Shown: positions 7,327-49,700, counted from the first letter of the stretch. The stretch is 64,000 nucleotides of DNA from Ignavibacteria bacterium (GCA_016178595.1 JACOSY010000014.1:68256-132255), one strand, 5' to 3'. Notes: generated by a model not told the origin, from the letters alone. Translations and numbers: made by a program.

Positions 7327-7599
7327 ATGGACGTTCGTGCGCATATTACAGTTCAAGGAATGGTGCAAGGCGTTGGCTTTCGGTACTTCGTCTACAACAA
7401 AGCAAAACAATCAGGCCTAGCCGGATTCGTCAAGAATCTCTATGATGGCAATGTCGAGATCGTCGTGGAAGGTGACCGTTCGATCATCGAAGAGTTTATT
7501 AAAGAAGTGAAAGTCGGGCCGCGCCCCGCACGGGTTACCGACCTCAAGATCAGTTGGCAGAAACCGGAACAACAATTTCATGAATTCACGATTCGATAA
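7327..7599 (+). CDS. acyP: Acylphosphatase
   Basis: A 90-residue protein, the usual length for acylphosphatase, which hydrolyses carboxyl-phosphate bonds such as acetyl phosphate or 1,3-bisphosphoglycerate in the cytoplasm. The signature [14 protein letters not shown] (residues about 8-21) holds the phosphate loop and catalytic Arg, and the catalytic Asn is in [16 protein letters not shown] (about 40-43). The start ATG is followed by DVRAHITV, the first beta strand, so nothing is missing. It is the first gene after the RAYT region, 28 bp before ispF, and probably cotranscribed with it from the promoter at 7277. Confidence 0.93.
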
Positions 7600-7627
7600 C
7601 TAAAGAGTACGCCGGCAGAAGAGCATC

Positions 7628-8119: not shown

Positions 8120-8192
8120 TTACAAGCACGGACTCGTTGTCCTTTCATACCGATGTTCACTCATCGCGTGGACATCTCATTCGATTCACTTT

Positions 8193-33211: not shown

Positions 33212-33219
33212 GAGCATCC

Positions 33220-33801
33220 TCAATCTACATCATTTGGTGGAACGAAACACTTACGACATCGTGCTTCATAGACATTGTGTGCTCCCACAACGACAAGCTC
33301 GTGCTGATTCGTAATGCGTTGTGTACGATCTGCGGGATTTCCGCAAACCATACAAATTGCCAGAGTCTTTGTGATGTACTCTGCAACGGCAAGGAGTTGG
33401 GGCATCGGCTCGAAGGGCTTTCCACGATAGTCTTGATCGAGTCCAGCAACGATGACGCGCTTACCCATGTCAGCCAATTTTTCGCACACTGCGACTAAGT
33501 CCGATGAGAAGAATTGTCCTTCATCGATCCCAATAACTTGAGCGTCTTTCGATAACTGAATAATTTCCTGTGGATTATCAATTACAGTTGAAATTAAGGA
33601 TTGCTCGCTATGCGAAACAATATGGTTCATACTATAGCGATTATCGATCCGTGGCTTAAAGATCATTACTTTCTGCTTTGCGATTTGAGCTCGTCTTAGC
33701 CGTCGAATGAGTTCTTCTGTTTTGCCACTAAACATACATCCACTTACTACTTCAATCCAGCCAGTGTTTTGCGGTGTATTATGTAGTGTTACATCTTCCA
33801 T
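33220..33801 (-). CDS. tdk: Thymidine kinase
   Basis: A 193-residue type II thymidine kinase that phosphorylates imported thymidine. Walker A VSGCMFSGKTEELIRRLRR, RIDNRYS, the DEGQFF segment (catalytic Glu), the lid and a zinc site made by CMVCGNPADRTQR and CRKC. The ATG at 33801 follows the cytidine deaminase stop (TGA-G-ATG), so it is preferred over an upstream start inside cdd. Part of the salvage operon. Confidence 0.96.
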   Translation of the reverse strand: MEDVTLHNTPQNTGWIEVVSGCMFSGKTEELIRRLRRAQIAKQKVMIFKPRIDNRYSMNHIVSHSEQSLISTVIDNPQEIIQLSKDAQVIGIDEGQFFSSDLVAVCEKLADMGKRVIVAGLDQDYRGKPFEPMPQLLAVAEYITKTLAICMVCGNPADRTQRITNQHELVVVGAHNVYEARCRKCFVPPNDVD

Positions 33802-33802
33802 C

Positions 33803-34213
33803 TCATGTTTTTCGGGGGAATTTTCGAAGTGCGTATTTGGTGAATGGAAGTGGGAGAAGCTCACTCGACTTCATGATTTTCATTGCCCCGTCATTGCTGG
33901 TTAAGATTATATCTATATCACCAGCAAGATCCATAATGACTTGACGGCAGGCACCACAAGGCGGAATGAGTTCATCGGAATCACTTGTGATCGCTAGTGC
34001 TGTGAATGTAGGCCTTGACTCAGAAAGTGCCTTGAAGAGAGCGGTGCGCTCGGCGCAGATGGTAAGGCTATAAGAACTATTCTCGATATTGCATCCGGTG
34101 TAAATCTTCCCAGACTTAGTGAGAACGGCTGCTCCGACCCGGAAGTTTGAGTACGGCGCGTATGAGTATCGTTTAGCTTTTTTCGCAGCTTGTACGAGAG
34201 TTGAGTACTTCAC
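33803..34213 (-). CDS. cdd: Cytidine deaminase
   Basis: A 136-residue tetrameric-type enzyme converting cytidine to uridine. Zinc and catalytic residues: TICAERTALF (Cys, Glu) and PPCGACRQVI (two Cys); substrate residues in TGCNIENSSYSLT. Starts with GTG (34213); YSTLVQAAKKAKRYSYAPYSNFRVGAAV is the standard N-terminus. First gene of the salvage operon, downstream of a predicted promoter at 34271-34243. Confidence 0.96.
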   Translation of the reverse strand: MKYSTLVQAAKKAKRYSYAPYSNFRVGAAVLTKSGKIYTGCNIENSSYSLTICAERTALFKALSESRPTFTALAITSDSDELIPPCGACRQVIMDLAGDIDIILTSNDGAMKIMKSSELLPLPFTKYALRKFPRKT

Positions 34214-34242: not shown

Positions 34243-34271
34243 AATATAGGTAAATTGACTCTGAGAATCAA
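34243..34271 (-). promoter_or_regulatory. Predicted promoter of the nucleoside salvage operon
   Basis: Minus strand TTGATT (34271-34266), 17-nt spacer, TATATT (34248-34243); the -35 overlaps the stop codon of the upstream methyltransferase gene. The cdd start is 30 bp downstream of the -10. Confidence 0.6.
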
Positions 34272-34951
34272 GGAGCCTTTTCCGCACGAACGATGATGAG
34301 CCTTTCGAAAAAGAGATTTTTCTCACGCACTCGTTGAAATGAAAAACAGGATTGTCTAAAGAGATCCTTCAGCAATTCAATATCCATGTCAGAAGAGAAG
34401 ATACAAAACACTTTTCCTGTCGGTGTGAGATAATGGGCTGCCCTGGGAATGAACAATCGTAGCACTTGATAGTCATTTCCACCCTTCCATGCTGTTTCTG
34501 AAGCATCGAGTGGTAACCCTTTGTAAAATGGTGGATTGAAAAATATGTATTCAAACTTCTCTTGATCTTCAATCGTTTCGAACAGATTACTCAACTGCAC
34601 ACTGATGGTGGAAGCCAACTCATTCAACTCGGCATTTCTACGCGTAGCGTGAACGGCAACAGGATTGATGTCGATACTGCGAACCCGGGCACCTCTTGAA
34701 GCGGCAACAAGGGAGAGGATGCCGGAACCACATCCCATATCAAGTACATTGAGTGAATCGAGCTTAAGCTCTTGAATATAATGGGCAAAAAACTTGCTGC
34801 TGAAGTAAAGTTGCGGATGAAAAACACTCGGTGGAACTTCAAGCTCAAAGCCGAGCAATGTTGTCTTGTCATTCCTCAGAAGTTTCGGTTTGGCATACAG
34901 GTGATAAAGCAGCAAAAAAAAAGCTCGTCTGAACAAGTTTGAGGCGAGCAT
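34268..34951 (-). CDS. Class I methyltransferase, NPPF-type
   Basis: A 227-residue Rossmann methyltransferase. SAM-binding motif I LNVLDMGCGSGILSL (about 68-82), acidic motif II VRSIDINPVAVHATRRNAELN, and motif IV FNPPFYKG, the N/D-PPY/F active site that methylates planar nitrogen (N6-adenine, Gln or guanine N2; HemK/RsmC-like). N-terminal about 60 residues contain FHPQLYFSSKFFAHYI, as in small-molecule or rRNA methylases. Starts 1 bp after the stop of the radical SAM gene upstream (TAG-A-ATG spacing), so it belongs to that operon; could modify its product or be an rRNA/protein methylase. Confidence 0.82.
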   Translation of the reverse strand: MLASNLFRRAFFLLLYHLYAKPKLLRNDKTTLLGFELEVPPSVFHPQLYFSSKFFAHYIQELKLDSLNVLDMGCGSGILSLVAASRGARVRSIDINPVAVHATRRNAELNELASTISVQLSNLFETIEDQEKFEYIFFNPPFYKGLPLDASETAWKGGNDYQVLRLFIPRAAHYLTPTGKVFCIFSSDMDIELLKDLFRQSCFSFQRVREKNLFFERLIIVRAEKAP

Positions 34952-34952
34952 T

Positions 34953-36392
34953 CTACCAATTTACCCGGTGAAGGAGTTTGTGTCTGACGAAGTTGATGAC
35001 TTCCTTTTCCACAGGAAGCCTATAGTAATCTCTTTTCACTCGTTGCGATGCCAGATATCTTAAAGGCACTAAAATCCCATTTTTTCGCTCCTGCTCCGTG
35101 GCAAATTTTGTGTAAAACTTAAAGCGCTCGACATATTCGCGTTCAGAATTTTTTACCCAATAGCCTGCGTACATGATGAAATCAATGTCACTCCACTCTG
35201 CAAGTGTCTGGGGAACTCGATAGCCTTTCTTCACGATGTACTCGAAGAGCTCAGTCCCCGGGTACGGTGTGAAGAAGAAGATATTGAATTCAAAACGAGG
35301 ATCGATGCGCTTGATCTCTTTGATTGTGTCGAGAGTTTTAAGCGTGTTATCGAATCCTTCTTCCGGAAATCCAACAATAAATCCGAACGAGGCTCCAATT
35401 CCATGCTTCGAGAGTTTTTCTGCCGAGATGATTGCTTCTTCAGCAAGGGTATCTTTCTTCATCAAGTCGAGCATTTCTTGAGAACCTGACTCTGCGCCGA
35501 TCATGACTTTTCGGAGACGCGCGCGCGCGACTTCCTGTAGAAAATCATCGGTGAGCGGTGCAATTTGGTCGGCTCTCGACGTTGCTGCCCAGGTGAAGTT
35601 CATGCCGTGCCGATTGATGCCCGTGCAAAACTCGAGGACGCGATTCCGGTTGGCAAAAAAATTTTCGTCCTGGAAGAGCACGTCGTCTACGCGATACTTC
35701 TTCACTGCTTCGAAGACGTCGAAGAGCATACGTGATCCCTTCAGACCCGACCATCGGCGATTATAGACGTACGGATCTGCACAGAAGGCACAACGATACG
35801 GACAACCTTGTGATGAGTAAAAATCGATTTGTCTCATCCCTTTCAACCGGAAGTATGTCTCGAATGGGACGAGATCGTAGTCGTATGCAGGGAAGTTGTT
35901 GATGTCGATAAATTTGCGTTCTGCGTTCTCATGAAACTTTCCATTCTTGAGATAGGCAAGTCCGAGTACCGTGTCGAAGCCGTCATTCGCATCGAGCGCA
36001 TCCAGTAATTCTAAAAAAGTCATCTCCCCTTGGCCGAAGATGCAGTAATCCGCAAAGCCTTCCCGTATGCACTGTTCGGGATAGATGGAAGGATGCCATC
36101 CGCCCCAGATGACCGGAACATCCGGCGCAACATGCTTCGTCATCTGCGAAATTGCTGCGGCATCTTTGACGGGAGTTCCGGTAATAACGGAAACTCCGAC
36201 ACAAACCGCATCGGGCAAAAGCTCGCGGACTTTGTCATGGGCATGTCGCGTACTCTTTTCAATTCGCGCATCAATAATCTTGACGTCGTACCGTTCACGG
36301 TCAATGACTGAAGCAAGCGCCAGGAATTGAAGCGGCAGGGTGTAGTACGGAGCGGCGGGGTTATAGAAAATGATTGTACGTTTCTTAGGCAT
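34953..36392 (-). CDS. B12-binding-type radical SAM protein, cluster paralogue 4
   Basis: A 479-residue protein. N-terminal cobalamin-binding-like Rossmann domain (about 1-145, with VGVSVITGTP and VPVIWGGWHPSIYPEQ, but no DxHxxG), then a radical SAM core with CPYRCAFC (Cys197, 201, 204), EFNIFFFTPYPGTELFEYI and the ESGSQEMLDLMKK segment. The C-terminus (about 400-479) is basic and unassigned. Such proteins methylate or rearrange unactivated carbons in lipids, hopanoids and natural products; substrate unknown here. Starts 8 bases inside the end of paralogue 3 (ATG in CAGTATGCC) and is followed at 1 bp by a methyltransferase. A TTG start 18 bases earlier is less likely. Confidence 0.85.
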   Translation of the reverse strand: MPKKRTIIFYNPAAPYYTLPLQFLALASVIDRERYDVKIIDARIEKSTRHAHDKVRELLPDAVCVGVSVITGTPVKDAAAISQMTKHVAPDVPVIWGGWHPSIYPEQCIREGFADYCIFGQGEMTFLELLDALDANDGFDTVLGLAYLKNGKFHENAERKFIDINNFPAYDYDLVPFETYFRLKGMRQIDFYSSQGCPYRCAFCADPYVYNRRWSGLKGSRMLFDVFEAVKKYRVDDVLFQDENFFANRNRVLEFCTGINRHGMNFTWAATSRADQIAPLTDDFLQEVARARLRKVMIGAESGSQEMLDLMKKDTLAEEAIISAEKLSKHGIGASFGFIVGFPEEGFDNTLKTLDTIKEIKRIDPRFEFNIFFFTPYPGTELFEYIVKKGYRVPQTLAEWSDIDFIMYAGYWVKNSEREYVERFKFYTKFATEQERKNGILVPLRYLASQRVKRDYYRLPVEKEVINFVRHKLLHRVNW

Positions 36393-37872
36393 ACTGTTCG
36401 GCGCCTTCAATTTCCGGTTGACGGTATTTCAAAATTTTGGAAAGGACAAACCGTATCTCGTACGGCGCAGTGTAAAAATTCCTCCGATATCGCCAGCCGC
36501 TGAGCATGCGAAGGAATTGTTTTTTTGCTGCCGTAAGTTTCAAATCCGACACGGTGGGATAGTAGGCATTGAGGACACGCTCAAAATTTCGGATCTTTAT
36601 AAGGTGGTGTGGACGAAGCCAGGGGGTCGCCGACTCTTTCCGCAGATCAAGGTGTTGCCATTCAGGACTTACCCATTCTTCAAGTGTTCTTGGATAATCA
36701 AACCCATGCTTCTTAGCTTCCTCGAATATCGTTGCTCCCGGCAAGAAGACGGGGGCATAAACGTAAAAAATAATCTCTGCAAACGGATTGATCTCTTTGA
36801 TTTTACGGATGTATTGGATGTCTCTCTCGATGCTTGCATCCACATCAGTGCTTGGGGAGCCGAAGATGAATGAATATTCAGGTATGATATCGAATTGTTT
36901 GATTCGCTTGGTAAATTCCAATACGAGATCGGGTGTTTGTGTGCCTCCTTTGTTCATAAGTTCGAGTGTATCGGATGAACTCGATTCAGCGCCCATGAAG
37001 ATCATCGTGCAGCCGCTTGTTCGCATCAGGTCGAGCGTCGAGTCAGAGTATTGCATCAACGTGTCGATGCGTGCATCGCCCCACCAGGCGATTCCTTTTC
37101 CCGCTATCGCTTCTGCGAATGTCCGCGTGCGTTTCTCGGAAACAAAAAAATTATCGTCGAAAAACTCAACGGAGTCAATGCCATACTGCTTCTGTAATTC
37201 CAGGAGATCGTCTGCAACTCTTAAGGGGTTCTTCGCTAACCAGCGCCCTTCGTATACGGCAGCAATTGCACAGAACCCGCAGAGAAACGGACAACCATAG
37301 CTTGAGTGATAGCCTATTGTCCGGCGTCCAAGGTATGTTCTTGCGAGATAGTGTTGCATGTTGACTCGATGGTAGGGAAGAGGAGGGAGAATATCGGGAT
37401 GGACAAACTCTCTGGGAGCGGTGCGAATTACTTTTCCATCTCTATGAAATGCAATCCCGTGAATGTTATCGATCGGTTGATGAACTTCCAGTGCGTCAAT
37501 CAACTCGGAGAACGAGAATTCCCCTTGGCCGGAGACGACGTAATCGACGTAATCGACAGAGAGAACGGTATCCGTGTGTATCGTCGGGAATGTGCCACCC
37601 CATATAATGATCAGATGAGGATGCGCAGCTTTCATTTTTTTGGAAATAGCTACGGCACGAACGAGTTGTGGTCCAGGCATTACGGTCAACGCAAGGTACT
37701 TGACCTCCTGCTTCGACATGATAGTCGAGAGCGTTCGATCGATGTCGTGATCGAAGTTCTCATCCACGATGGCATATGGATATTTTCCTTCGAGGCCGGA
37801 TGCTACCGCAAGCACCGAAAGAGGAATGCGGTGGTTCCATCGAGCGCTTCGGGGATTAACCAGAACAATCAT
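36385..37872 (-). CDS. B12-binding-type radical SAM protein, cluster paralogue 3
   Basis: A 495-residue protein with the same layout as its downstream neighbour: N-terminal Rossmann domain (LIIIWGGTFPTIHTDTVL, GQGEFSFSELIDAL), radical SAM core CPFLCGFC (Cys194, 198, 201), [29 protein letters not shown] and FYVYAPVFLPGATIFEEAK. It shares clear blocks with paralogue 4 (GRW/RRW after the cluster, FFDDNFF/FQDENFF), so the two arose by duplication. Overlaps paralogue 4 by 8 bases. Function in the cluster unknown. Confidence 0.85.
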   Translation of the reverse strand: MIVLVNPRSARWNHRIPLSVLAVASGLEGKYPYAIVDENFDHDIDRTLSTIMSKQEVKYLALTVMPGPQLVRAVAISKKMKAAHPHLIIIWGGTFPTIHTDTVLSVDYVDYVVSGQGEFSFSELIDALEVHQPIDNIHGIAFHRDGKVIRTAPREFVHPDILPPLPYHRVNMQHYLARTYLGRRTIGYHSSYGCPFLCGFCAIAAVYEGRWLAKNPLRVADDLLELQKQYGIDSVEFFDDNFFVSEKRTRTFAEAIAGKGIAWWGDARIDTLMQYSDSTLDLMRTSGCTMIFMGAESSSSDTLELMNKGGTQTPDLVLEFTKRIKQFDIIPEYSFIFGSPSTDVDASIERDIQYIRKIKEINPFAEIIFYVYAPVFLPGATIFEEAKKHGFDYPRTLEEWVSPEWQHLDLRKESATPWLRPHHLIKIRNFERVLNAYYPTVSDLKLTAAKKQFLRMLSGWRYRRNFYTAPYEIRFVLSKILKYRQPEIEGAEQYA

Positions 37873-37915
37873 AACGATATCGATTCAATACCGACGCGTA
37901 TAGTCGGAGCTGCTG

Positions 37916-39184
37916 CTATCGAGCACGATGCCCGGATGGGATACTCAGGAAATCATTTGCCGAATACGGCAGTTCCATCTGTCGTTTCGAGATCCGAGCA
38001 AAGAGCCATAGGAGAAGAACGCTTCCATAGACTCTCGGAAATCCCAAAATTCCCATCCAGCTATCCTGAAACAATGATATATGATACGGAATTTTTGGCG
38101 AAAGAAGCAAGAGAGCGATCCCAAATATGAGCGAGTTTGTCGAATCAGTGCCGTACGACAAGTATCTATAACACAAGAAAATAGCCGGCAAGAGCAGAGT
38201 GTAGTGATAGTCATAAAGTATTGGTGCAGTCAATACGCCGATAATGATTGCAACCATCAGTGGAAGCGGGGATCTACGATCACGGTCCTTTGCAAGCCGA
38301 TACAGTACGATGAGAGCACCGATGAACAGCGTTAGAAGTAGAGGTCGTATAACTTCCGGCATATTAAATAACGGGTGAGGATTCCATTGATCGCGAAGAA
38401 ATATCCAACTTACCAAGCTCTGTATGTTCTGCCGGAACGTCGCTGCAGGAGGCATGGAGGCAATAAGTTGTGTGAGAGAGGATGCATAGGAAGACCACGT
38501 CTCGATTCCAACAACGAACGACGAAATAACAATTAGTGCCAAGTATAGTGCAATGGTGTAGAAAACAATTTTCCAACGCTTCTGAAAAAGAGCTAAGACC
38601 AGAAACATAAGTCCATAGCCTTTGAGCGCTAGAAGAAACGTAATGACGATTGCTGAAAGGATCTGTTTTTCTTTTACCCATGTTTTAAATAGAATGACAT
38701 GTAAGAGAAGGAGCGGTGCATAAACTTGTCCCCAAACAAAATTGATGTACAACGGCGAGAATCCGAAGACAAATGCAGTGAACGTGAACGTTTCCGTACT
38801 TCTCAGCGAAAAAATTTGTTGGAGGAGATACAGTGAAAGAACAGTACAGGCGAGTGAGAACATTTCCCACGCGAGCTTAGCCTTTGTGATAGGCAAGAAA
38901 GAAAATGGAGCCATCAGGAATGCGAGTGTCGGGGGATTAGCCCTGAAGTAATCTTCCGATTCCAGGCCGGTGAAGTGTAAGGTTCTCTCCGTGAAAGCAT
39001 GGTCGTCATATAATAAACGCATGTCATCGCCGGCGAGAAGCATGGCACCGCCGGTGTAATACGCAATAAATCCGCCCGTTGGTCTGGCAACATACGATAC
39101 GATTCGAATGAAGAAGAAGCCGATCGATACTACTGCAATACTCATAGCGATAATTCTCAGTCGAGCTGGATGCATGGACATCAC
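37916..39184 (-). CDS. Polyprenol-phosphate-type integral membrane glycosyltransferase (GT87/DUF2029)
   Basis: A 422-residue protein with about ten transmembrane helices. N-terminal FIAYYTGGAMLLAGDDMRLLYDDHAF and FRANPPTLAFLMAPFSFLP are the extracytoplasmic loop motifs of the GT87 mannosyltransferase-like family, which transfer sugars from polyprenyl-phosphate donors on the outer side of the membrane. The acidic residues needed in the first loop (DD) are present. Neighbours: B12 radical SAM genes and other glycosyltransferases on the same strand, 43 bp and 19 bp apart, so it probably acts on the same glycan or glycolipid. Confidence 0.78.
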   Translation of the reverse strand: MMSMHPARLRIIAMSIAVVSIGFFFIRIVSYVARPTGGFIAYYTGGAMLLAGDDMRLLYDDHAFTERTLHFTGLESEDYFRANPPTLAFLMAPFSFLPITKAKLAWEMFSLACTVLSLYLLQQIFSLRSTETFTFTAFVFGFSPLYINFVWGQVYAPLLLLHVILFKTWVKEKQILSAIVITFLLALKGYGLMFLVLALFQKRWKIVFYTIALYLALIVISSFVVGIETWSSYASSLTQLIASMPPAATFRQNIQSLVSWIFLRDQWNPHPLFNMPEVIRPLLLTLFIGALIVLYRLAKDRDRRSPLPLMVAIIIGVLTAPILYDYHYTLLLPAIFLCYRYLSYGTDSTNSLIFGIALLLLSPKIPYHISLFQDSWMGILGFPRVYGSVLLLWLFARISKRQMELPYSANDFLSIPSGHRAR

Positions 39185-39203
39185 GCAGGGTTTCGCCGCT
39201 GTT

Positions 39204-40235
39204 CTAAAATTTGTTCAACAGTGCTTGGGTCGGTTGAATGTTGAGCGTACAAACACACGTCTTACATCTCTCAAGCGAATAGTGCTTGACTTGTTCGCGC
39301 GTGAATTGAGCCTCGGGCAGCTTCATCAGCTCATCTAATCTTTTCTCATGAATATTGCCAAATCCTGGCAGGAAAAAACATGGTTGAACATCGCCCGTCG
39401 AGGTGATCACGGCGGAGACCATCGGCGCATTGCAGACGTTTCGGGGAAAATCACACTTGCCGTTGAGTGCTTTAAAATACTGCACGAGATGTCTCAGCTT
39501 CGCAGGAGATTCGGAGATAAAGCTGCTCTCAAAATCAGCAGTATGATCGGCAATCAATTGCTCGACCATGTCGCTGAATTCGTCCGCCTCTTGTTCATCC
39601 AACATACTCATGCGATCGGGTGTGATCGCTTCACTTCCAGTCCGGCCAAAACTATCTGAGAGCACATCGACAGCGAGAAAGGAGATTCTCTGAACGCCGA
39701 GCGATCTGGCAAGATCCACAATCGTTCCAAGTTCGCGGAAGTTCTGCTTTTGAACGACACACCGGATGGAAACTTTATTGTTGCCGAGAAGGGAGACAGC
39801 TTGACGGATTCCTTGTACAATGCAATCGAAAGAATCGACGCCTCGAATAGCGTTGTGAACGTCTGCGGTTGGTCCATCGAGCGAGACGATAACCTCGCTC
39901 AGATACGAACAGATATCCGCCAAACGTTTTTCGAGCAAAAGGCCGTTCGTCAACAATGTTTGCTTCACACGATACCGACCGAAGGCTTTGCAAATAAGAG
40001 AGAAGTCGCATCGCATCAAGGGCTCGCCGCCCGAGTAGACAATGTGCCGCAACCCGTAGTCGTGGAGGGAGCGGGCGAGGGTTTCGATCTCCGAGAGCGT
40101 CAACTCGTTCGGGAGAGGGTTACGATAGAAGCACATACGACACTTCAAATTGCATCCTTCAGTGACATAGAGAATGACGATCGGAAGTGTCTGCGACGTC
40201 GTCGAGATAGTATTTAACCAGGCGCGAACGTTCAT
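39204..40235 (-). CDS. Radical SAM protein with SPASM-like C-terminus
   Basis: A 343-residue protein. Radical SAM cluster CNLKCRMC (Cys28, 32, 35), SGGEPLMR, LTNGLLL and SLDGPTADVHNAIRG are typical of AslB/MoaA-like members. The C-terminus adds Cys residues in CDFPRNVCNAPMVSAVITSTGDVQPCFF and ERCKTCVC, a SPASM-type auxiliary cluster region; spacing is shorter than in the peptide-modifying anaerobic sulfatase-maturing enzymes. Such enzymes modify peptides or small molecules. No precursor peptide is evident nearby, so the substrate is unknown. Unlike its four neighbours, it has no B12 domain. Confidence 0.85.
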   Translation of the reverse strand: MNVRAWLNTISTTSQTLPIVILYVTEGCNLKCRMCFYRNPLPNELTLSEIETLARSLHDYGLRHIVYSGGEPLMRCDFSLICKAFGRYRVKQTLLTNGLLLEKRLADICSYLSEVIVSLDGPTADVHNAIRGVDSFDCIVQGIRQAVSLLGNNKVSIRCVVQKQNFRELGTIVDLARSLGVQRISFLAVDVLSDSFGRTGSEAITPDRMSMLDEQEADEFSDMVEQLIADHTADFESSFISESPAKLRHLVQYFKALNGKCDFPRNVCNAPMVSAVITSTGDVQPCFFLPGFGNIHEKRLDELMKLPEAQFTREQVKHYSLERCKTCVCTLNIQPTQALLNKF

Positions 40236-40256
40236 GGGTACTGCAATGTTTCTTCA

Positions 40257-40277
40257 ACTGATCGTTACGCGATCAGT
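40257..40277. other. 8-bp hairpin in the leader of the SPASM radical SAM gene
   Basis: ACTGATCG-TTACG-CGATCAGT, 22 bp before the ATG at 40235. There is no T-run, so it is not a terminator. It could be an RNA structure or protein site. No gene in the 106-bp gap 40236-40341. Confidence 0.45.
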
Positions 40278-40341
40278 ATAAAATACGGAAAATACTTGAG
40301 AAGATGGACATCCTTCTTACACAAAATTATGCCAAGGAAAA

Positions 40342-41493
40342 TCAACCCAGGTGGAGCTGGTTGTATACCATTGACAACTGCTCAATAGCTCGATCGAGAT
40401 TATGGGTTTGCGACCATTGATATGCGCCTTCCCTGAGCTTTGTGTAGCGATCAGGAGCATCGACCAGGCTGAATACTCCACGGGCGAGAGACTCATAGTC
40501 GCCTACATCAACGACTATTGCACGATCGCGACCAAGATCGGAAAGAAGGCCGACATTCGTTCCACACACAACCACGCCGGATGCTGCTGCTTCAGCGATC
40601 ACGACTCCGCCTCCTTCATGCAGCGAAGTATGCAGCAAGAGATCAGCCCAGCCGTAGTGCTCGAGGAGTTGCTGCTGTGTTTGGAAGCCGAGGAATTCAG
40701 TCCTCTCACTCACTTCAAGTTTCTTCGCGAGTGCCTGAATCTCTCCACTCATATAATCTCGTCCGGCAATGCGTAACCGGCAATCGATTTTTTCTGCAAC
40801 GAGTGCAAATGCTTTAAGGAGTGTTGATTGGTCCTTTACCGCATTTACGTTTGCCACATGCAGGCAACGCAAAGGAGTATGAGGAAATGCTTTTCCATTC
40901 TGACGAAAGACACTTGTATCGACAGATGGCGGGATGATATGAATATCCCCTCGTCCGATTCCGTATCGTTGCAAGCCTTCTGCCTGAAAATGAGTCAACG
41001 CAATGAGAGCATCGGCGCGACGACACGTCCAGAGTGTTAATCGTTTTGCTAAAGAACTTTGCATATTCCCATAACCGATCTGCGGAAGGTTTGCCGTCTC
41101 ACCGCCAAGCACACTCACAACGCTCGCACAATGAAGAAACTTTCCAAGGATCACTGCGGCGAATCCCGTTGGAAGCGCCCAGAACCCGTGAATGATCTCG
41201 AACGGTGCTTGTCGATAGTCTCTCAAGATTTCTTTTGTGAGAGCGGACATTTGCGACAGTACATGATCGGACTGTTTCAAGTGGAGATTACGCACGACGG
41301 CATTTCCACAACGATAATCAGCCGGTTCTGAAGATGGACTGATCAAAGGATAGACCGTGAGTGAGAAATGATCCGAAAGGCGAGCGATGAACTGGACAAC
41401 GGACGGAATATGAATGCCGGACGCTTCATCTCCAACACCGCCAGGGACGGATATCGCAATTCGGTGTAATCTATTTTTACTTTTGGTTATCAC
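40342..41493 (-). CDS. Glycosyltransferase family 4-type protein
   Basis: A 383-residue GT-B glycosyltransferase. N-terminal acceptor domain begins IAISVPGGVGDEASGIHIPSV; C-terminal donor domain has VANVNAVKDQSTLLKAFALV, RLRIAGRDYMSGEIQ, FLGFQTQQQLLEHYGWADLLLHTSLHEGGGVVIAEAAASG (the E-x7-E-type nucleotide-sugar motif) and VDVGDYESLARGVFSLV. It ends at 40342 and its start overlaps the heptosyltransferase-like gene by 17 bases. Donor and acceptor sugars are not predictable. Confidence 0.88.
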   Translation of the reverse strand: MITKSKNRLHRIAISVPGGVGDEASGIHIPSVVQFIARLSDHFSLTVYPLISPSSEPADYRCGNAVVRNLHLKQSDHVLSQMSALTKEILRDYRQAPFEIIHGFWALPTGFAAVILGKFLHCASVVSVLGGETANLPQIGYGNMQSSLAKRLTLWTCRRADALIALTHFQAEGLQRYGIGRGDIHIIPPSVDTSVFRQNGKAFPHTPLRCLHVANVNAVKDQSTLLKAFALVAEKIDCRLRIAGRDYMSGEIQALAKKLEVSERTEFLGFQTQQQLLEHYGWADLLLHTSLHEGGGVVIAEAAASGVVVCGTNVGLLSDLGRDRAIVVDVGDYESLARGVFSLVDAPDRYTKLREGAYQWSQTHNLDRAIEQLSMVYNQLHLG

Positions 41494-42526
41494 CGTTCAC
41501 CGGAATGTTCTGCGATGCAGTATCCAGAAGTTGTTGAAGCGTTTCGAGGATCATGTGAGGTTCAAAGCGTGTTAAGCAGTGAACATCGTCATAACGACAT
41601 GTCGGCTGTCCGCAATCGCCACACGGAAGATCGCCGGAGTGAAAACAGCGAACGTGGGTACCGATCGGCCGCGACTGACGATGATCGGTTGACCCAAAGA
41701 GTACGACCGTTGGGATGCCGGATGCCCATGCCATGTGCATCAAACCGGAATCCTCGGTAACCATCGCAGCGGAATATTGCAAGAGACAAAATGCCTCGGC
41801 AAGCGAAGTCTTTGAAACGAGATCAATGAGGTTCTTACCGAGATGTTCCTGTAGATAGCGTGCGTGTTCTGCAATTCGCGGTGTCCCTACAATAATGAAC
41901 TGTGTGTCATGATGTCGCAACCATAAGTTTGCGAGCGAAACATAATTCTCGATCTGCCAATTTCTTGTCTTCCACAAACCGGCGGGATTTAAGACGATGA
42001 GCGATGCATGTTCGTTCCAGCCATTCTCTCTGAGGAGAACCTGTGCTTTCATCTCGTACTTGTTTTCAAAGCGTAACGCACATGATGGCTCAACATCGAG
42101 ACCGATTTCATGAAGAGTGGCACGGACGCGATCTGCTGCCGAAAGAGGAGAATAACGATCGAATTGACACCAAATTTTCGGTACGAGGCTTCGACGGATC
42201 ATCTTCGTGATCCAATTCCCTTGTAGATCAAGAACAATATTGTAACCATGCTTGGGGAATTCCCAGGAATTGCGGAGTGTATGGTATAACCGTCCGTACC
42301 GACTTGAGCAATAAGGAAACGTTCGAACATTATCGAACAGTGTCAGCGCACTCGCAAGCGGCGCAATATCTTCGCGAGTCAGCAAGTCTATCTGCGCAGA
42401 TGGAAAGCGATTACGTAGTCCCTGGCAATACGGTATTGTAATGGCTACATCACCGACAGCGTGCAATCGAATCACAAGTATCGAAACCCGATCTCCTGCT
42501 AAATGAAGGATGCTTCTGCTTTTCAT
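41477..42526 (-). CDS. Glycosyltransferase family 9 (heptosyltransferase-like) protein
   Basis: A 349-residue GT9 protein. SILVIRLHAVGDVAITIPYCQGLRNRFPSAQIDLLT at the N-terminus, LNPAGLWKTRNWQIENYVSLA and VTEDSGLMHMAWASGIPTVVLFGSTDHRQSRPIG at the donor site are characteristic of ADP-heptose transferases and relatives that build lipopolysaccharide core or similar glycans. C-terminal CGDCGQPTCRYDDVHCL resembles the Cys-rich tail of WaaF-type proteins. In the cluster between a GT4 gene and a methyltransferase. Confidence 0.88.
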   Translation of the reverse strand: MKSRSILHLAGDRVSILVIRLHAVGDVAITIPYCQGLRNRFPSAQIDLLTREDIAPLASALTLFDNVRTFPYCSSRYGRLYHTLRNSWEFPKHGYNIVLDLQGNWITKMIRRSLVPKIWCQFDRYSPLSAADRVRATLHEIGLDVEPSCALRFENKYEMKAQVLLRENGWNEHASLIVLNPAGLWKTRNWQIENYVSLANLWLRHHDTQFIIVGTPRIAEHARYLQEHLGKNLIDLVSKTSLAEAFCLLQYSAAMVTEDSGLMHMAWASGIPTVVLFGSTDHRQSRPIGTHVRCFHSGDLPCGDCGQPTCRYDDVHCLTRFEPHMILETLQQLLDTASQNIPVNGDNQK

Positions 42527-42658
42527 ATTTGTGTTGAGTTACAGACGATTCCCCGAACGGATATCGGTAGGAACGTGGTCAGTAAAGTCAACGATCTTCA
42601 TGCGGAAGTCCATGTACGCTCATCGTACAAGAATGTTGTTGTACGTTCGTCTTTCGGA

Positions 42659-43471
42659 TTACGACTTGCGGCGGGCTTCGATCACGAAATGATCGCCAAG
42701 CGAATGCCATGGAGAACGTGAGCGGATTGTTTCATCAAGCCGGAGAAGCCGAGCCGTAAGTTGTGAATGGCGAAGTACGAACGATCGAGAGTTAGGCGAG
42801 GGTGACAGGATACTCAGTCCGTATACATGTTCGATCTCGAAATAGGGCGAAAGAATTCGAATAAATTCCTTCGGCGTATAGTAGCAAACTTCGACAGTCG
42901 AACTTCCAAGACGAACGGTAGTCGGTTGCCTCCGCATGCGCCGGAACGCAGAGCGTAGGTTACCTCGAAGCAAGAAGCTGACCATTTCCCATAGCGAGAA
43001 TTTGTTGATCATACATACGACAACGCTCGCATGAGGCTTGAGAAGTCCCGAAAGAGTTTCAAGAACGGGATCAATGTTTGACGTGCAATTCAATCCGCCA
43101 AAATTCGAGAATGCACCATCGAACTTCATCCTGCCGAGCGTTACGAGATGCTCGAATGAACGTTGTTGAAAACGAATGAGCTGCGAAACTCCTTTTTCCC
43201 GAGCCTTCTCTTCTGCGCCGGCGATCATCCTTTCTGACGAATCAATCGCGGTAACCTGAACGCCGTTCTCGGCAAGCATGATCGCGTCTGTTCCGGTTCC
43301 ACAGTTAAGCTCCAGTACGTGGTCTCCCGTTTTGAAATGTGCGAGAAGGCTTCGCCAAAAAATCGGACGAATGCGTGCAGTTATCGGATTGTCTTCGAAG
43401 ACCTGATCGTATGTTTGCGCTAGGACGTCAAAACTTGCTGGAAAATTGACTGGATGGGAAGGGCTTGTCAT
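42659..43471 (-). CDS. SAM-dependent methyltransferase
   Basis: A 270-residue class I methyltransferase. Motif I is GDHVLELNCGTGTDAIMLAENG (the usual GxGxG reads as NCGTGT, about residues 55-60), followed by VTAIDSSERMIAGAEEKA and the later motif FDGAFSNFGGLNCTSNIDPVLETLSGLLKPHASVV, typical of small-molecule methylases. Overlaps the preceding radical SAM gene by 4 bases (ATGA), so it is translationally coupled. The 132-bp gap downstream holds only a 24-codon frame. Likely methylates an intermediate of this cluster (inference). Confidence 0.83.
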   Translation of the reverse strand: MTSPSHPVNFPASFDVLAQTYDQVFEDNPITARIRPIFWRSLLAHFKTGDHVLELNCGTGTDAIMLAENGVQVTAIDSSERMIAGAEEKAREKGVSQLIRFQQRSFEHLVTLGRMKFDGAFSNFGGLNCTSNIDPVLETLSGLLKPHASVVVCMINKFSLWEMVSFLLRGNLRSAFRRMRRQPTTVRLGSSTVEVCYYTPKEFIRILSPYFEIEHVYGLSILSPSPNSRSFVLRHSQLTARLLRLDETIRSRSPWHSLGDHFVIEARRKS

Positions 43472-44853
43472 GAGCGTTGAGTCTTTGTCAGTTCCATCCC
43501 AAGGCGTGCCAGTTTTGCCTTCGCGAAGGAGGAGGCAATTTTCATGAAATCCTTATGGCCATTCTGGCGAAGCTTATGCTGCTTCACTTCATTGACGAGA
43601 TAGCGGTTGGCGAACCAGTAAAACCGATCGGAATAGCGCCCCGAAAATTGAAGATTGCGATCGGTTCCCGAGGCCCAAGCAGCCGGTTCTGAAATTCGGC
43701 CGGAAACTTCCTTGTAGAACTCTGTGCCTTTGATCGGGTACGCGACCGTCGTGAGAAAGGTGTCGGCATTGGTTTGCTTGAGGTGATCCGTTGTTTCGTC
43801 AATGTCCGAGAGGTGCTCGCCGGGATAACCGAGCATAACGAAAAGTCCGATTTGGATTCCATATTTCTGAGCAACTGTTGTCGTGGACTGAATTTCTTCG
43901 ACTGTCACCTTTCGCTGCATGGCATCAAGAATGCGCTGTGAGCCGCTCTCCGATCCATACCAGATGCGGAAAGCGCCAAGCTCCGACATCTTTTGGAGAA
44001 TTTCTTCGTTCAGACGATCCGCGCGCGAGATGCACTCGAACGGAATGCGAATATTCCGGCGCTTCATTTCATCATAGAAATCATGAAACCAGCGGTGATG
44101 AATGGTGAAAACATCATCCGCGAACCACAACATGTCCGGCGTATATCGTTGAAGCAAATACTCGATTTCATCGACAACATTCTTTGCAGAACGGCGGCGA
44201 TGCGTCTCGCCATAGATGGAGCGGCTGCACCATGTGCATGTGAAGGGACAACCGCGTGCACAAATAAGCGAAACCGATCCCATCCCGTGATGAATGCGCC
44301 ACGTGCTTACATACGTATCCATGTCGATCGCTTCTCGATCAGGTAATGGAATCGAGTCAAGATCCTGGATGAGCGGGCGCGGGGATGTGCGAATGATGTT
44401 TCCATCATCCCGCCGGTAGACAATCCCGGCAATAGAACCCAATGAAGAACCCGTGTAAAGCGCCGGAACAAGCTCGCGCATCGTTTCCTCGCCTTCGCCT
44501 ATGACGGCCACGTCCGCACCATACTGAATGTACGCCTCGGCATACTCCGGCACGTCGGGTCCGCCAACAACAACCTTGCAGCGCTGAGCCTTGCAGTATT
44601 GGATCTGTTCGAGCACATTCATCTTTGTCATGAGGTTGCTGTAAATGCCTACGATGGTCGGACGGTTGGTATTGATGAATGTCTGAAAGTCGGATTTTCG
44701 TTTGAAGGTCGTATCGAATACCTGGGCACTTAACGCATGTGCTTTCAGATAAGCAGAAATGCTCAGGATGCCGAGCGTGGGATAGGGCTTCATGATACGC
44801 TTCTCGGCTTCATCTTCATGAAGAAAATAGCCGTGTGTGAGAAGGAGATCCAT
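43468..44853 (-). CDS. B12-binding-type radical SAM protein, cluster paralogue 2
   Basis: A 461-residue protein: Rossmann-like N-terminus (MDLLLTHGYFLHEDEAEKRI, VVVGGPDVPEYAEAYIQYGADVAVIGEGEE), radical SAM cluster CPFTCTWC (Cys202, 206, 209), DMLWFADDVFTIHHRWFHDF, YGSESGSQRILDAMQRKVT and GLFVMLGYPGEHLSD. Strongly related to the upstream paralogue 1 (both open with LLxTHxYFL and share LWF-DD-F). Ends with basic residues. 1 bp after paralogue 1 and overlapping the methyltransferase by 4 bases. Confidence 0.87.
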   Translation of the reverse strand: MDLLLTHGYFLHEDEAEKRIMKPYPTLGILSISAYLKAHALSAQVFDTTFKRKSDFQTFINTNRPTIVGIYSNLMTKMNVLEQIQYCKAQRCKVVVGGPDVPEYAEAYIQYGADVAVIGEGEETMRELVPALYTGSSLGSIAGIVYRRDDGNIIRTSPRPLIQDLDSIPLPDREAIDMDTYVSTWRIHHGMGSVSLICARGCPFTCTWCSRSIYGETHRRRSAKNVVDEIEYLLQRYTPDMLWFADDVFTIHHRWFHDFYDEMKRRNIRIPFECISRADRLNEEILQKMSELGAFRIWYGSESGSQRILDAMQRKVTVEEIQSTTTVAQKYGIQIGLFVMLGYPGEHLSDIDETTDHLKQTNADTFLTTVAYPIKGTEFYKEVSGRISEPAAWASGTDRNLQFSGRYSDRFYWFANRYLVNEVKQHKLRQNGHKDFMKIASSFAKAKLARLGMELTKTQRS

Positions 44854-44854
44854 A

Positions 44855-46321
44855 TTAATTGGCGTGATGCTCCAACCGGTTCAGTTCGGATTCAGCCGAG
44901 GGGAGCGTGACGGTGTGATACGCAAGAGCGATCATCCTTCGAATGGAGTATCTATTGATCGCGGATGGATTGGCCAGACAGTGTTTCAGAATATCGCGTC
45001 CTTGCCAGATGCGAAATTTTTTATGGGTGATTGTATGAAGTGCCCTGTAGAAATCAGTCGTGTACGCACCATGATACATGATAGCAAGGTCCTGGCTATC
45101 GACCCAGTTTTGCTTTGCGCCTAACTGTTGTCTCACAGTCTCATAAAATTTCGTTCCGGGCAGCGGATACGAAACCGAAATACCGATCTCATCGGGCTTG
45201 CAATCCTTCACCATCCGGAGTGTCAGTTCTATTTCACGACGTGTTTCGCCGGGGTAACCGTACTGCAGGAAAAATCCCACACGCATCCCGAACTGGCGGA
45301 GCTGTTTCGCTGACGTGTAAATTTGTTCGACGGTCGTTCCTTTTTCCATGGCATCGAGGATATGTTGCGATCCGGATTCCGCGCCGATCCAGACCGTCTG
45401 GCAACCTGCACGGGCAAGCTGTCGGATGGTTTCATCCTTCAACAGAAGATCGGCACGTGAAAGACATTTGAACGGAATGTGAGCATCATGTGTGATCACG
45501 GCATCTGCAAAACGTGGTACCCATTCTGGTTTAAGTCCGAAAATATCGTCGCAAAACCACAGATGGTCCGGATGGTAATCCTTTTTCATCATTGCCATTT
45601 CTTCAACGACATTTTCGGGAGTCCGCGAGTGGTAAACCTGTCCGTAGATCGGTTTCGCACACCAGTTGCAGTGGAACGGGCAGCCGCGAGTGGTCACGAT
45701 ATTCATTGAAAAATAGCCATGACGTTTGCGCCATATTCGTCGGTATGTTTCTATGTCCGCAAGATCGCGAGCAGGGAAGGGAAGACGGTCAAGATCGTGA
45801 AGAACTTCCCGCTTCGGCGTGCGTTGAACCGTACCATCCGATCTGTATGCGATCCCGTTGATGATCGCAGGGCTGCCGTATGACGTGAAAATGTGCTGGA
45901 GCAATTCACACAATGTTTGTTCTCCCTCGCCGATCACGACATAATCAGCGCCATGCTCGATGTAGTTTTCCGCATGGTCGGCCGGATCGGAACCGTGCAC
46001 GATAACAATGCAACCGTGCTCTTTGGCGATCCTGCTGATGGAGAAAGCGGCATCGCGCATTCTGCTGAGGCACATTTTCGTGAGATAATTGAAATCATCA
46101 TCGTAGAGCACGACGACCTTCGGCTTTTCCTCATCGATGGCCGCTGCAATCTCTTTCTCACTTTGAGCAAGCATGCTGTCGAAAAGAGCCACAGAGTAGC
46201 CAAGGGAACGCACCTGGGCGGCAGCGTATAACGTGCCGAGGGGAGCGTACGGCATCATCGCCTTGAACTCTTTAGGATCAAAGCAAAGAAAATAGGAATG
46301 TGTGAAGAGAATGTCAGCCAT
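44855..46321 (-). CDS. B12-binding-type radical SAM protein, cluster paralogue 1
   Basis: A 488-residue protein: Rossmann-like N-terminus (ADILFTHSYFLCFDPKEF, IVIVHGSDPADHAENYIEHGADYVVIGEGEQTL), radical SAM cluster CPFHCNWC (Cys214, 218, 221), DHLWFCDDIFGLKPEWV, IGAESGSQHILDAMEKGTT and VGFFLQYGYPGETRREIE. C-terminal segment about 100 residues, unassigned. First of a tandem pair with paralogue 2 (1 bp gap). Cobalamin binding is inferred from the fold and synteny, since no DxHxxG is seen. Confidence 0.87.
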   Translation of the reverse strand: MADILFTHSYFLCFDPKEFKAMMPYAPLGTLYAAAQVRSLGYSVALFDSMLAQSEKEIAAAIDEEKPKVVVLYDDDFNYLTKMCLSRMRDAAFSISRIAKEHGCIVIVHGSDPADHAENYIEHGADYVVIGEGEQTLCELLQHIFTSYGSPAIINGIAYRSDGTVQRTPKREVLHDLDRLPFPARDLADIETYRRIWRKRHGYFSMNIVTTRGCPFHCNWCAKPIYGQVYHSRTPENVVEEMAMMKKDYHPDHLWFCDDIFGLKPEWVPRFADAVITHDAHIPFKCLSRADLLLKDETIRQLARAGCQTVWIGAESGSQHILDAMEKGTTVEQIYTSAKQLRQFGMRVGFFLQYGYPGETRREIELTLRMVKDCKPDEIGISVSYPLPGTKFYETVRQQLGAKQNWVDSQDLAIMYHGAYTTDFYRALHTITHKKFRIWQGRDILKHCLANPSAINRYSIRRMIALAYHTVTLPSAESELNRLEHHAN

Positions 46322-46342
46322 GATGGAGTGCGGCTCGAAGAA

Positions 46343-47251
46343 TCACGTCATGCCGTGCTGGCGAAGTTTTTCCGCGTACAAGTCCAATATCTTGTTGCTA
46401 AAGTTTCCCACGAAAGCGCGGGACTCGTATGCAGTCGAATGAAAAATACTTTCTCTCGTCGAATCATCATAGTGAGGATATCGTTTTCTCCAGACACGTT
46501 TCATCGTGTTCATCAACGAACGATCGAGTGTACCCGCCCATCCTCCGCGGAATGACAGCTCCGACAATTTCTGCAGGAAACTTGATCTGCTGTTCGCGTC
46601 ATCGATGGAAAACGCAAAAAGTCGATAGTTGGGAAAGTATTCGTGGATCCAATTGTTTGCATTCATGAATTTGAGAAACAGGGTTTGGTTGAAGAGCGGC
46701 TTCAGATGCGCGACCTCGGTCGCCGTATAGTAATTTCGCTCTTCCATTGCAAGATGGTTTGCATCGAGGAAAAAGTTCAGGCAGAAGTACTTCTTCCGAT
46801 TCACAAGGAAGATTTTTTTGAAAAGGATGAGAAGAGTTCTGCAAATCCACAATCGACCGGGTTCCGTGACGATGACATAATCGATATCGCTATCAGGATT
46901 TGCCACGCCTTTCGATAAATCTCCCGAAAGGAAAACAGCCCGAACGAAGGGAAAGCGCTTCATGATGTGAGACATGAATCGGGCAATCTTCATTCTTTGT
47001 CTCGCCCTCTTTTGACGCTCAAGCCGTATTCTCCCGGTATCGGATGCTTTGGATGGAATTGCGAAGAAGTCTCCCCGTGAAGCGATGACCCCATTCGCAG
47101 CAAGATCATTCAGAATGCCAATGAAGCTCTGCTCGGACAAAGAATTCCGAGGGAGCAAATGGTAAAGCTCGCGCGCCGTCAGCGGATGATCGAAAATGTC
47201 GTAGTAGAGCAGCGTGCGAAAGATTTGAGTGCTAACCTCAGAAAGCGGCAT
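46343..47251 (-). CDS. Nucleotidyltransferase-domain protein with winged-helix N-terminus
   Basis: A 302-residue protein. The N-terminal 80 residues (LLYYDIFDHPLTARELYHLLPRN) look like a winged-helix domain. Then comes a nucleotidyltransferase core, AVFLSGDLSKGVANPDSDIDYVIVTEPG, with the G-S/G-x(n)-D-x-D catalytic pattern (DSDIDY), and a C-terminal helical region rich in aromatic residues. Such proteins are not assigned a substrate by sequence. It is the first gene of the radical SAM/glycosyltransferase cluster, 21 bp before paralogue 1, and 65 bp from the MITE-like element. Confidence 0.8.
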   Translation of the reverse strand: MPLSEVSTQIFRTLLYYDIFDHPLTARELYHLLPRNSLSEQSFIGILNDLAANGVIASRGDFFAIPSKASDTGRIRLERQKRARQRMKIARFMSHIMKRFPFVRAVFLSGDLSKGVANPDSDIDYVIVTEPGRLWICRTLLILFKKIFLVNRKKYFCLNFFLDANHLAMEERNYYTATEVAHLKPLFNQTLFLKFMNANNWIHEYFPNYRLFAFSIDDANSRSSFLQKLSELSFRGGWAGTLDRSLMNTMKRVWRKRYPHYDDSTRESIFHSTAYESRAFVGNFSNKILDLYAEKLRQHGMT

Positions 47252-47308
47252 TCAACACCGAAATAGTACTTAAATAAGTTAGGCATTTTTCTGAAGATTG
47301 CAAATTCC

Positions 47309-47583
47309 TCCGGTTGGGTAGTGCATCAGTTTGAAGATTGTCGTGATGAATCCCAATTGAATGGACCTCACCCGTTACCTATGTCTCCGGTCTATATACC
47401 TCTCCTATAAGGAGAGGGCGTTTGCAAATCCTCCACATAAGCGTGCGGAGCAATTTCATCCTCTCCTCTTATGCCGAAGGCATCCCTTCGGGAGGAGAGG
47501 ATTATTCCGAAGGGATTCCTTTGGGATAGGTGAGGTCTGGAGTGTAGCTCTACAAATTCAAACTGAGGCACTACCTCCGGTTG
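47309..47583. mobile_element. MITE-like element with terminal inverted repeats and 8-bp target duplication
   Basis: Left end GGTAGTGCATCAGTTTGAA (47317-47335), right end TTCAAACTGAGGCACTACC (47557-47575): 19-bp inverted repeats with one mismatch. TCCGGTTG flanks both ends directly (47309-47316 and 47576-47583). Inside, GACCTCACC and GGTGAGGTC form a second inverted pair, around palindromes CCTCTCCTATAAGGAGAGG and CCTCTCC...GGAGAGG with the hairpin GCCGAAGGCATCCCTTCGG. No ORF worth reporting; 259 bp without the duplications. A non-autonomous transposon copy, probably mobilised in trans by an IS not in this window. Confidence 0.85.
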
Positions 47584-47591
47584 ACCAGTAT

Positions 47592-47650: not shown

Positions 47651-48427
47651 ATGGCCTTGGATCGCAGGAAAGCCTTCACTTCACGCCGGGCGAAGAAGAT
47701 ATACATCGCTCTCGCCTTTCTCATACTTCTTTTCTTCGTCTGTAACAATTTTCTCTTACCGTGGTACGTCAGTTCGGGAGGGATTGTGGAAGTCCCAACA
47801 GTTATTGGCAAGGATTTCGACAGTGCGCGAGTACTGCTGGTATCGCTTGGTTTGGAGCCACGGAAAGGGGAGACTCGTTTGGACCGTGAGCATCCTGCCG
47901 GAATTGTCATCGTTCAAAACCCGATGCCCGGCGATCACGTGAAGCGAGGTCGTCGAGTCTATCTCACCATCAGCGAAGGAGAAGTACCCGCAATCGTACC
48001 GAGTGTCAAAGGACGCACGGTACGCGATGCGCGCTTTGCTCTTGAACAGGAAGGATTGAAGATGGGGACGATCGACTATCAACCCTCCGACGAATTTCCT
48101 GCAAACACCATCATTGAACAGACGCCGGGAGCCGGTGGAAAGGTCAAGCGTGATGCATACGTTTCGGTGACGGTGAGTCAGGGGACATTGTCTCAAAAGA
48201 TTTCCGTACCGGATCTTGCTGGAAAAACTCTGACCGAAGCGACCACCTTGCTTACCAATGCAGGGCTGCGCGTCGGGAATATCAGTTACCTTCCTTCAAC
48301 AGACCTGTTACCGAATACGGTCATTGAGCAGTACCCGCGTGGCGGCGAGCTTGTCTCGAATGGCCAATTGATCGATCTCTTCGTAGTTCAAGGCGGAGAG
48401 AAAAAGAAAGAATTCCTCGAAAACTGA
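47651..48427 (+). CDS. PASTA-domain membrane protein
   Basis: A 258-residue protein with a short cytoplasmic basic N-tail (residues 1-17), a transmembrane helix (about 18-38, IYIALAFLILLFFVCNNFLL) and three PASTA domains outside (about 45-110, 113-180, 186-250). Each has the VP..V/L-G..-A...L...GL pattern (VPTVIGKDFDSARVLLVSLGL, VPSVKGRTVRDARFALEQEGL, VPDLAGKTLTEATTLLTNAGL). PASTA domains bind muropeptides or beta-lactams in Ser/Thr kinases and PBPs, but this protein has no kinase or transpeptidase. It could be a cell-wall sensor or scaffold. Followed by rpe 10 bp later, so probably cotranscribed. Confidence 0.9.
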   Translation: MALDRRKAFTSRRAKKIYIALAFLILLFFVCNNFLLPWYVSSGGIVEVPTVIGKDFDSARVLLVSLGLEPRKGETRLDREHPAGIVIVQNPMPGDHVKRGRRVYLTISEGEVPAIVPSVKGRTVRDARFALEQEGLKMGTIDYQPSDEFPANTIIEQTPGAGGKVKRDAYVSVTVSQGTLSQKISVPDLAGKTLTEATTLLTNAGLRVGNISYLPSTDLLPNTVIEQYPRGGELVSNGQLIDLFVVQGGEKKKEFLEN

Positions 48428-48437
48428 CTTTCACAGC

Positions 48438-49100
48438 ATGCCTATGCTCAAGATAGCTCCTTCTCTGCTCTCGGCTGATTTCCGAAATCTTGAAAAACAG
48501 ATACGACTTATTGAACGCGGCGAAGCGGATTGGGTTCATCTCGATATCATGGATGGGCATTTTGTTCCGAACATTACATTTGGTCCCGCTGTCGTCAAGG
48601 CAGTTCGCAAACTCACAAAGCTTTCCCTCGATGCACATTTGATGATTGAAAAGCCTGAACGGTATCTGAAGGCTTTCAAGAACGCAGGTGTGGATAGGTT
48701 GACGGTTCATGTCGAGGCATGTCAGCATCTGCGCCGCACTGTTCAGCAAATCAAGAAGCTCGGGATGAAGGCCGGTGTTACGCTGAAGCCTGCCACTCCT
48801 GCTAAAACATTGAAGAATATCATGCCGTACGTTGATCTTGTGCTTGTCATGACTGTTCATCCCGGATTCAGCGGACAAAAATTTATCGAGTCGATGCTGC
48901 CAAAGATCCGTGAGGTTGCAGGGATGATCAGGTCGTCCGGACGTGCTATTGAGCTTGAGGTTGATGGGGGCGTCGACGAGCATAATGCCGCTGCACTGAT
49001 CCGAGCCGGTGCTACAGTCTTAGTGGCAGGGTATTCAATCTTTTCCAGGCGGAGTATTCCATCGGCGATTAAGCGTCTTCGCAACGCTGCGCAGGCCTAA
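48438..49100 (+). CDS. rpe: Ribulose-phosphate 3-epimerase
   Basis: A 220-residue TIM-barrel enzyme of the pentose phosphate pathway. Seen: IAPSLLSADFRNLEKQI (first strand), HLDIMDGHFVPNITFGP with the metal His and Asp, LDAHLMIEKPERYLKAF, VDLVLVMTVHPGFSGQKFI and LEVDGGVDEHNAAALIRAGATVLVAGY. All catalytic residues are present. Start ATG 48438 is followed by the second M two codons later; either gives the standard N-terminus. Follows the PASTA gene by 10 bp. Confidence 0.97.
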   Translation: MPMLKIAPSLLSADFRNLEKQIRLIERGEADWVHLDIMDGHFVPNITFGPAVVKAVRKLTKLSLDAHLMIEKPERYLKAFKNAGVDRLTVHVEACQHLRRTVQQIKKLGMKAGVTLKPATPAKTLKNIMPYVDLVLVMTVHPGFSGQKFIESMLPKIREVAGMIRSSGRAIELEVDGGVDEHNAAALIRAGATVLVAGYSIFSRRSIPSAIKRLRNAAQA

Positions 49101-49129
49101 ATTTTTTATTTTCTCGGTTAAAAAATATC

Positions 49130-49158
49130 TTGACATTCTCTGTTCATTACCTTATATT
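49130..49158 (+). promoter_or_regulatory. Predicted promoter of the Lrp/AsnC-glnA pair
   Basis: TTGACA (49130-49135), 17-nt spacer, TATATT (49153-49158): a near-consensus pair and the best promoter in the window. Transcription would start near 49165. Confidence 0.75.
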
Positions 49159-49174
49159 CTAAGGCAATAGTTCA

Positions 49175-49200
49175 ATATGCCTTAAATTAATAAGGCATAT
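49175..49200. promoter_or_regulatory. Palindromic operator-like site for the Lrp/AsnC regulator
   Basis: Perfect 10-bp arms ATATGCCTTA and TAAGGCATAT around AATTAA. It lies about 10-35 nt downstream of the predicted start, and a third AAGGCA half-site lies at 49161. The position in the leader of the regulator gene suggests autoregulation by the Lrp-type protein. Confidence 0.65.
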
Positions 49201-49231
49201 CGCTGTTTTTCCTCCAAAATGAATATCCCTT

Positions 49232-49684: not shown

Positions 49685-49700
49685 TCGAGAGGAAACAACA

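Follow-up and report, generated by a model that had tools for sequence, protein, structure and literature searches.

A modular locus of B12-domain radical SAM enzymes and glycosyltransferases in an Ignavibacteria-like genome with a probable role in surface-glycan assembly

Fixed flanks enclosing an exchanging interior are typical of O-antigen-type loci. Among the cobalamin radical SAM enzymes, TsrM, OxsB, TokK, CysS and MgmA combine B12 and radical SAM domains with a CX3CX2C motif. The radical SAM 1,2-diol dehydratase AprD4 acts on an aminosugar and is described in the title of its PDB entry as a diol dehydratase without cobalamin. The MNT nucleotidyltransferases, represented by the antitoxins of HEPN-MNT systems and by ANT enzymes, have a DxD-type catalytic motif in common. 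The locus described here, in which B12-domain radical SAM proteins are encoded beside glycosyltransferases, methyltransferases and a nucleotidyltransferase-like protein, lies on contig 11 of the 3.1 Mb draft genome (97% complete) of an Ignavibacteria-like host, within the 64,000-bp stretch of DNA that was analysed (the window). Titles and abstracts of open-licence papers on B12 radical SAM clusters in Ignavibacteria or Bacteroidota, or in O-antigen contexts, contained nothing on the locus.

The block comprises 11 intact genes, all on the minus strand, at positions 34268-47251 (approximately 13 kb). The classes assigned in a preliminary description of the sequence (radical SAM proteins, glycosyltransferases, methyltransferases and a nucleotidyltransferase-like protein) were all recovered intact with Pfam domains above cut-off. 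The first gene encodes NT (46343-47251), a nucleotidyltransferase-like protein with an N-terminal winged-helix-like part followed by an MNT-type domain. Next are RS1 (44855-46321) and RS2 (43468-44853), two B12-domain radical SAM proteins, and MT1 (42659-43471), a class I SAM methyltransferase. The middle of the block encodes a heptosyltransferase-like GT9 enzyme (41477-42526; PF01075, 82 bits; TIGR02195, 99.8 bits with a cut-off of 134.6), a GT4 glycosyltransferase (40342-41493; PF00534, 91 bits), a SPASM-domain radical SAM protein (39204-40235; PF04055, 75.7 bits; PF13186, 34.4 bits) and GT87 (37916-39184; PF09594, 88.7 bits), a multi-span membrane glycosyltransferase with approximately six membrane spans by hydropathy and of a class for which polyprenyl-phosphate sugars are the expected donors. 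Two further B12-domain radical SAM proteins, RS3 (36385-37872) and RS4 (34953-36410), precede the last gene of the unit, MT2 (34268-34951), encoding a PF05175-type methyltransferase with an FNPPF motif. The preliminary description was correct in following the genes down to 34.3 kb, but it started the block at 34953 and so left MT2 outside although naming it. The packing is also looser than the overlaps of 4-17 bp and gaps of 1-20 bp it had reported, the successive spacings from NT to MT2 being 21, 1, -4, 132, -17, 106, 19, 43, -26 and 1 bp (range -26 to 132 bp); MT2 is separated from the downstream cytidine deaminase gene by 54 bp. The occurrence of several glycosyltransferases (GT9, GT4 and GT87) in one co-directional block is a property of lipid-linked surface-glycan loci. 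Genes for an initiating transferase, flippase, polymerase, ligase or nucleotide-sugar synthesis were not found within the window's block.

The extent of the unit was defined from empty sites at the Tdk locus of ten members of the family or order without NT. The distance between the PASTA protein and cytidine deaminase genes was approximately 100-118 bp in five genomes (G013, G008, G005, G001 and G015), 315 bp in G033 and 756 bp in G024, and small remnants were present between the two genes in G023 and G018. In G013, G008 and G005 the junction corresponded to window position 34272|47590 with 13,317 bp of the window absent, the left-hand junction being located at the stop codon of MT2. The right-hand match was strong in all three genomes (57-60 versus shuffled maxima of 29), whereas the left-hand match was strong in G005 only (55 versus 29) and near chance in G013 (35 versus 31) and G008 (38 versus 35). 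The common junction indicates that the 13,317-bp cassette (34273-47589) is found in its entirety or not at all. The preliminary description had reasoned that independent insertions in relatives would argue against a single pathway; the empty sites, together with the co-occurrence and linkage of NT, RS1 and RS3 given below, show the block behaving as one unit.

Outside the unit, the fixed downstream flank contains the nucleoside salvage and uptake genes Cdd, Tdk and Bmp (32195-34213, minus strand), kept without the cassette, and the divergent fixed flank encodes the PASTA protein, Rpe, an Lrp-type regulator and glutamine synthetase (47651-51065, plus strand). Cdd and Tdk, adjoining a Bmp-type nucleoside uptake system, remain beside the PASTA gene where the cassette is missing. 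Cdd was considered as a member of the pathway and rejected because of its retention beside PASTA in the empty sites. Near the right end of the cassette, between the NT and PASTA genes, a sequence of approximately 73 bp (47399-47471) lies in a hairpin-rich stretch. It recurs in diverged form at other sites of the genome (75-90% identity; contigs 11, 59 and 27) and is possibly a small REP/MITE-like element.

Strong relatives of RS1 were found in 25 of the 345 genomes of the phylum, every one of which also encodes NT; the two genes are no more than 4.4 kb apart in 24 of these and on separate contigs in G334. RS3 relatives, found in 15 of the 345 genomes, fall entirely within the RS1 set. The hypergeometric values for co-occurrence (2e-33 and 5e-20) ignore shared ancestry and are descriptive only, and the NT-RS1 mirror-tree correlation of 0.69 was obtained with species phylogeny not controlled for. 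NT was found in 26 of 60 relatives. In the 36 loci of relatives that contain RS1, an MT1 label could be given to 27, with contig ends accounting for several of the others; RS2 was present in 9, RS3 in 14 and the SPASM protein in 9, and RS4 was encountered beyond the window in G007 only. Thus, NT, RS1 and MT1 constitute a stable core, and RS2, RS3, RS4, the SPASM protein and the glycosyltransferases vary. Fixed flanks with an exchanging interior, as found here, are a second property of lipid-linked surface-glycan loci. A search for close relatives of RS1 on plasmids found none.

The loci of relatives contain additional genes. A PglK/MsbA-like ABC protein is encoded at the locus in six relatives (L048, L088, L092, L095, L096 and L098); among NCBIfam models it scored best with MsbA and PglK, below cut-off in both cases, and PglK/WlaB was its sole full-length half-transporter match among the PDB matches listed. 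Wzy_C ligase/polymerase proteins are encoded in L098 and L095. The gene order in L098 (genome G090) is PF02397 sugar transferase, ABC protein, GT4 enzymes, RS3, methyltransferase, SPASM protein, RS1, MT1, NT and Wzy_C protein, with the sugar transferase gene 6 bp before that of the ABC protein. GT2/GT4 enzymes, a calcineurin-like phosphoesterase and more methyltransferases are also added at relatives' loci. The absence of a polymerase, flippase or exporter noted previously therefore holds for the window's block but not for the locus in general. The host has ABC exporters, none clearly orthologous to the relatives' ABC protein, and encodes LpxC and PF02397 proteins elsewhere in its genome. In one relative (L094, 15422-16570; genome G202) NT and MT1 are separated by a sulfotransferase gene, which suggests that the product there may be sulfated.

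Overall, the results point, with a probability of roughly 0.6, to a variable locus for a lipid-linked surface glycan or glycolipid tailored by radical enzymes. A glycan or glycolipid, the idea put forward in the preliminary description, is the product class best supported by the glycosyltransferases of the block and by the ABC, PF02397 and Wzy_C proteins at the relatives' locus. Additional points in favor are a fusion of RS1 and MT1 in a single 727-residue protein in G154, a fusion of MT1 to a domain resembling the sialyltransferase family GT29 in G055 (L042; 31 bits, cut-off 23), the place of AprD4 among the nearest folds to RS1, and the LpxC and PF02397 proteins of the host and its apparent use of cobalamin. 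Against this reading, the window's block has none of the initiation, flipping, polymerase, ligase or nucleotide-sugar genes listed above, and the ABC and Wzy_C evidence derives from relatives only. In addition, some loci (G041 and G053) encode NT, RS1 and MT1 with a TadA-like deaminase, and no glycosyltransferase was labelled in the DNA examined there, from which it follows that the product of the core itself need not be a glycan. The fused MT1 of L042 is encoded at 6612-8309, and MT1 of L041 (6750-8453) also has an extra C-terminal domain.

Each of RS1-RS4 contains PF02310 (B12-binding) and PF04055 (Radical_SAM) domains exceeding the cut-offs and one CX3CX2C motif, and phylogenetic analysis resolved RS1/RS2 and RS3/RS4 as two pairs of sister clades. 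No cut-off of a named NCBIfam radical SAM family was reached by any of the block's five radical SAM proteins, where the preliminary description had held that grouping with well-known housekeeping families would argue against a single pathway. TIGR04295 (B12_rSAM_oligo) has the same domain architecture as RS1-RS4, but scores were just 40-78 bits with a cut-off of 400; the AprD4 model scored no more than 80 bits with a cut-off of 500. Sequence identity of 20-30% is too low to read radical SAM function from sequence. The predicted structure of RS1 (pLDDT 85.8) is about equally near to TsrM, AprD4, MgmA and OxsB, with AprD4 resembling it in fold and extent (TM 0.68/0.72; 18% identity), and identity with TsrM, OxsB, TokK, CysS and MgmA is 15-19%. 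Since the model is similarly close to all four structures, RS1 may be a methylase or may carry out sugar chemistry other than methylation. The host appears to use cobalamin, and two B12-domain matches were located outside the block, MetH (methionine synthase) and a mutase-type B12 domain, as read from the sequence rather than by family search. BtuR (PF02572) was absent from the host genome, a result of little weight since it was the sole adenosyltransferase family searched.

The best-scoring named families for RS1-RS4 include HpnJ, BchE and TIGR04072. HpnJ and the ladderane-associated lipid family TIGR04072, together with the membrane location of GT87, are consistent with a membrane lipid or polyprenyl/hopanoid-type lipid that is modified by the radical enzymes and receives a head group from the glycosyltransferases. 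However, all of these families score far below cut-off (RS1 scored 137 with HpnJ, cut-off 577.6, and 122 with TIGR04072, cut-off 360), and no terpenoid or fatty-acid genes were recognised among the locus proteins searched; a lipid of this kind is considered unlikely.

The match of NT to NTP_transf_2 (PF01909) is marginal (21.2 bits, cut-off 21). Residues G110, K114, D122 and D124 are invariant among 36 homologs, forming an MNT-type G-S/K motif followed by DxD; NT thus retains the residues that a functional nucleotidyltransferase should have. The structural model is confident (pLDDT 92.4), and a search of PDB folds with it gave no strong match (all E >0.02), the weak matches being aminoglycoside adenylyltransferases and MNT antitoxins. 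NT has the catalytic motif in common with the MNT nucleotidyltransferases but adds to them the N-terminal winged-helix-like part and a long C-terminal region. The adenylyltransferase matches, the presence of AprD4 among the structures closest to RS1 and the patchy presence of the block as a unit would accommodate a secreted product, a small glycosylated molecule such as a pseudo-oligosaccharide. Radical SAM enzymes would tailor it in the manner of aminoglycoside clusters, and NT would be a nucleotidyltransferase serving self-protection. This alternative is judged quite improbable given the poor E values of the NT fold matches, a block without core-scaffold synthase, carrier protein or aminotransferase, and the PglK/MsbA-like, PF02397 and Wzy_C proteins at relatives' loci.

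Two enzymes of relatives' loci bear on a further alternative. An amidohydrolase resembling 5'-deoxyadenosine/aminofutalosine deaminases is encoded in eight loci, all with RS3 (L041, L045, L086, L088, L089, L090, L095 and L096), and a gene for a TadA-like deaminase comes after the core in six loci, none with RS3 (L048, L050, L054, L055, L085 and L097). The two were never found in one locus, and the host genome contains no clear ortholog of the amidohydrolase. Both enzymes, and the membership of NT in a nucleotidyltransferase family, could be reconciled with a nucleotide- or nucleoside-derived compound made by NT, RS1, MT1 and a deaminase, with the glycosyltransferases as optional decoration. 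Yet the amidohydrolase may merely clear 5'-deoxyadenosine or S-adenosylhomocysteine (SAH) produced by the radical enzymes, and the window is without either enzyme, its Cdd being part of the fixed flank, making a nucleoside product very doubtful. That unrelated genes lie together by chance, or that the block is a RiPP cluster, is scarcely credible in spite of an interior that differs in make-up between genomes. Recurrence of the same families together across the phylum, their linkage and their absence as a unit exclude chance grouping. No RiPP precursor was recognised in the window's block, where the intergenic gaps contain just short ORFs, and no protein reaches an NCBIfam RiPP family cut-off.

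For a surface glycan or glycolipid, the cassette is envisaged as a modular locus for synthesis on a lipid carrier. GT9, GT4 and GT87 would put together or lengthen a saccharide, and MT1 and MT2 would methylate the saccharide or one of its precursors. The five radical SAM enzymes would alter carbon positions by radical chemistry, whether C-methylation, dehydration of the AprD4 kind, epimerisation or another C-H reaction, with RS1 and MT1 probably working on successive intermediates. The probable role of NT is to nucleotidylate a precursor or to regulate the locus. Export in this host would depend on genes outside the locus for a flippase and an initiating transferase. A more tentative proposal, held at less than even odds, is that NT, RS1 and MT1 form an undescribed phylum-wide core that uses radical chemistry to make a new building block, either a sugar or a glycolipid, and that RS2, RS3 with the amidohydrolase, RS4 and the SPASM enzyme diversify it by lineage. 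If the surface-glycan reading is correct, loci of this type using up to five radical SAM enzymes across the phylum would represent new sugar chemistry, and the compact core, in which RS1 and MT1 are naturally fused once, is directly testable in cultured members of the phylum.

The O-antigen/capsule-type loci and PglK-type lipid-linked oligosaccharide loci resemble the window in their glycosyltransferases, fixed flanks and variable interior. The loci of relatives, unlike the window, also share with them the PF02397 transferase, the PglK/MsbA-like ABC protein and the Wzy_C protein. The window's block is distinguished from these known systems by having no initiator, flippase or polymerase and by its NT-RS1-MT1 core and its complement of four B12-domain radical SAM proteins and a SPASM protein.
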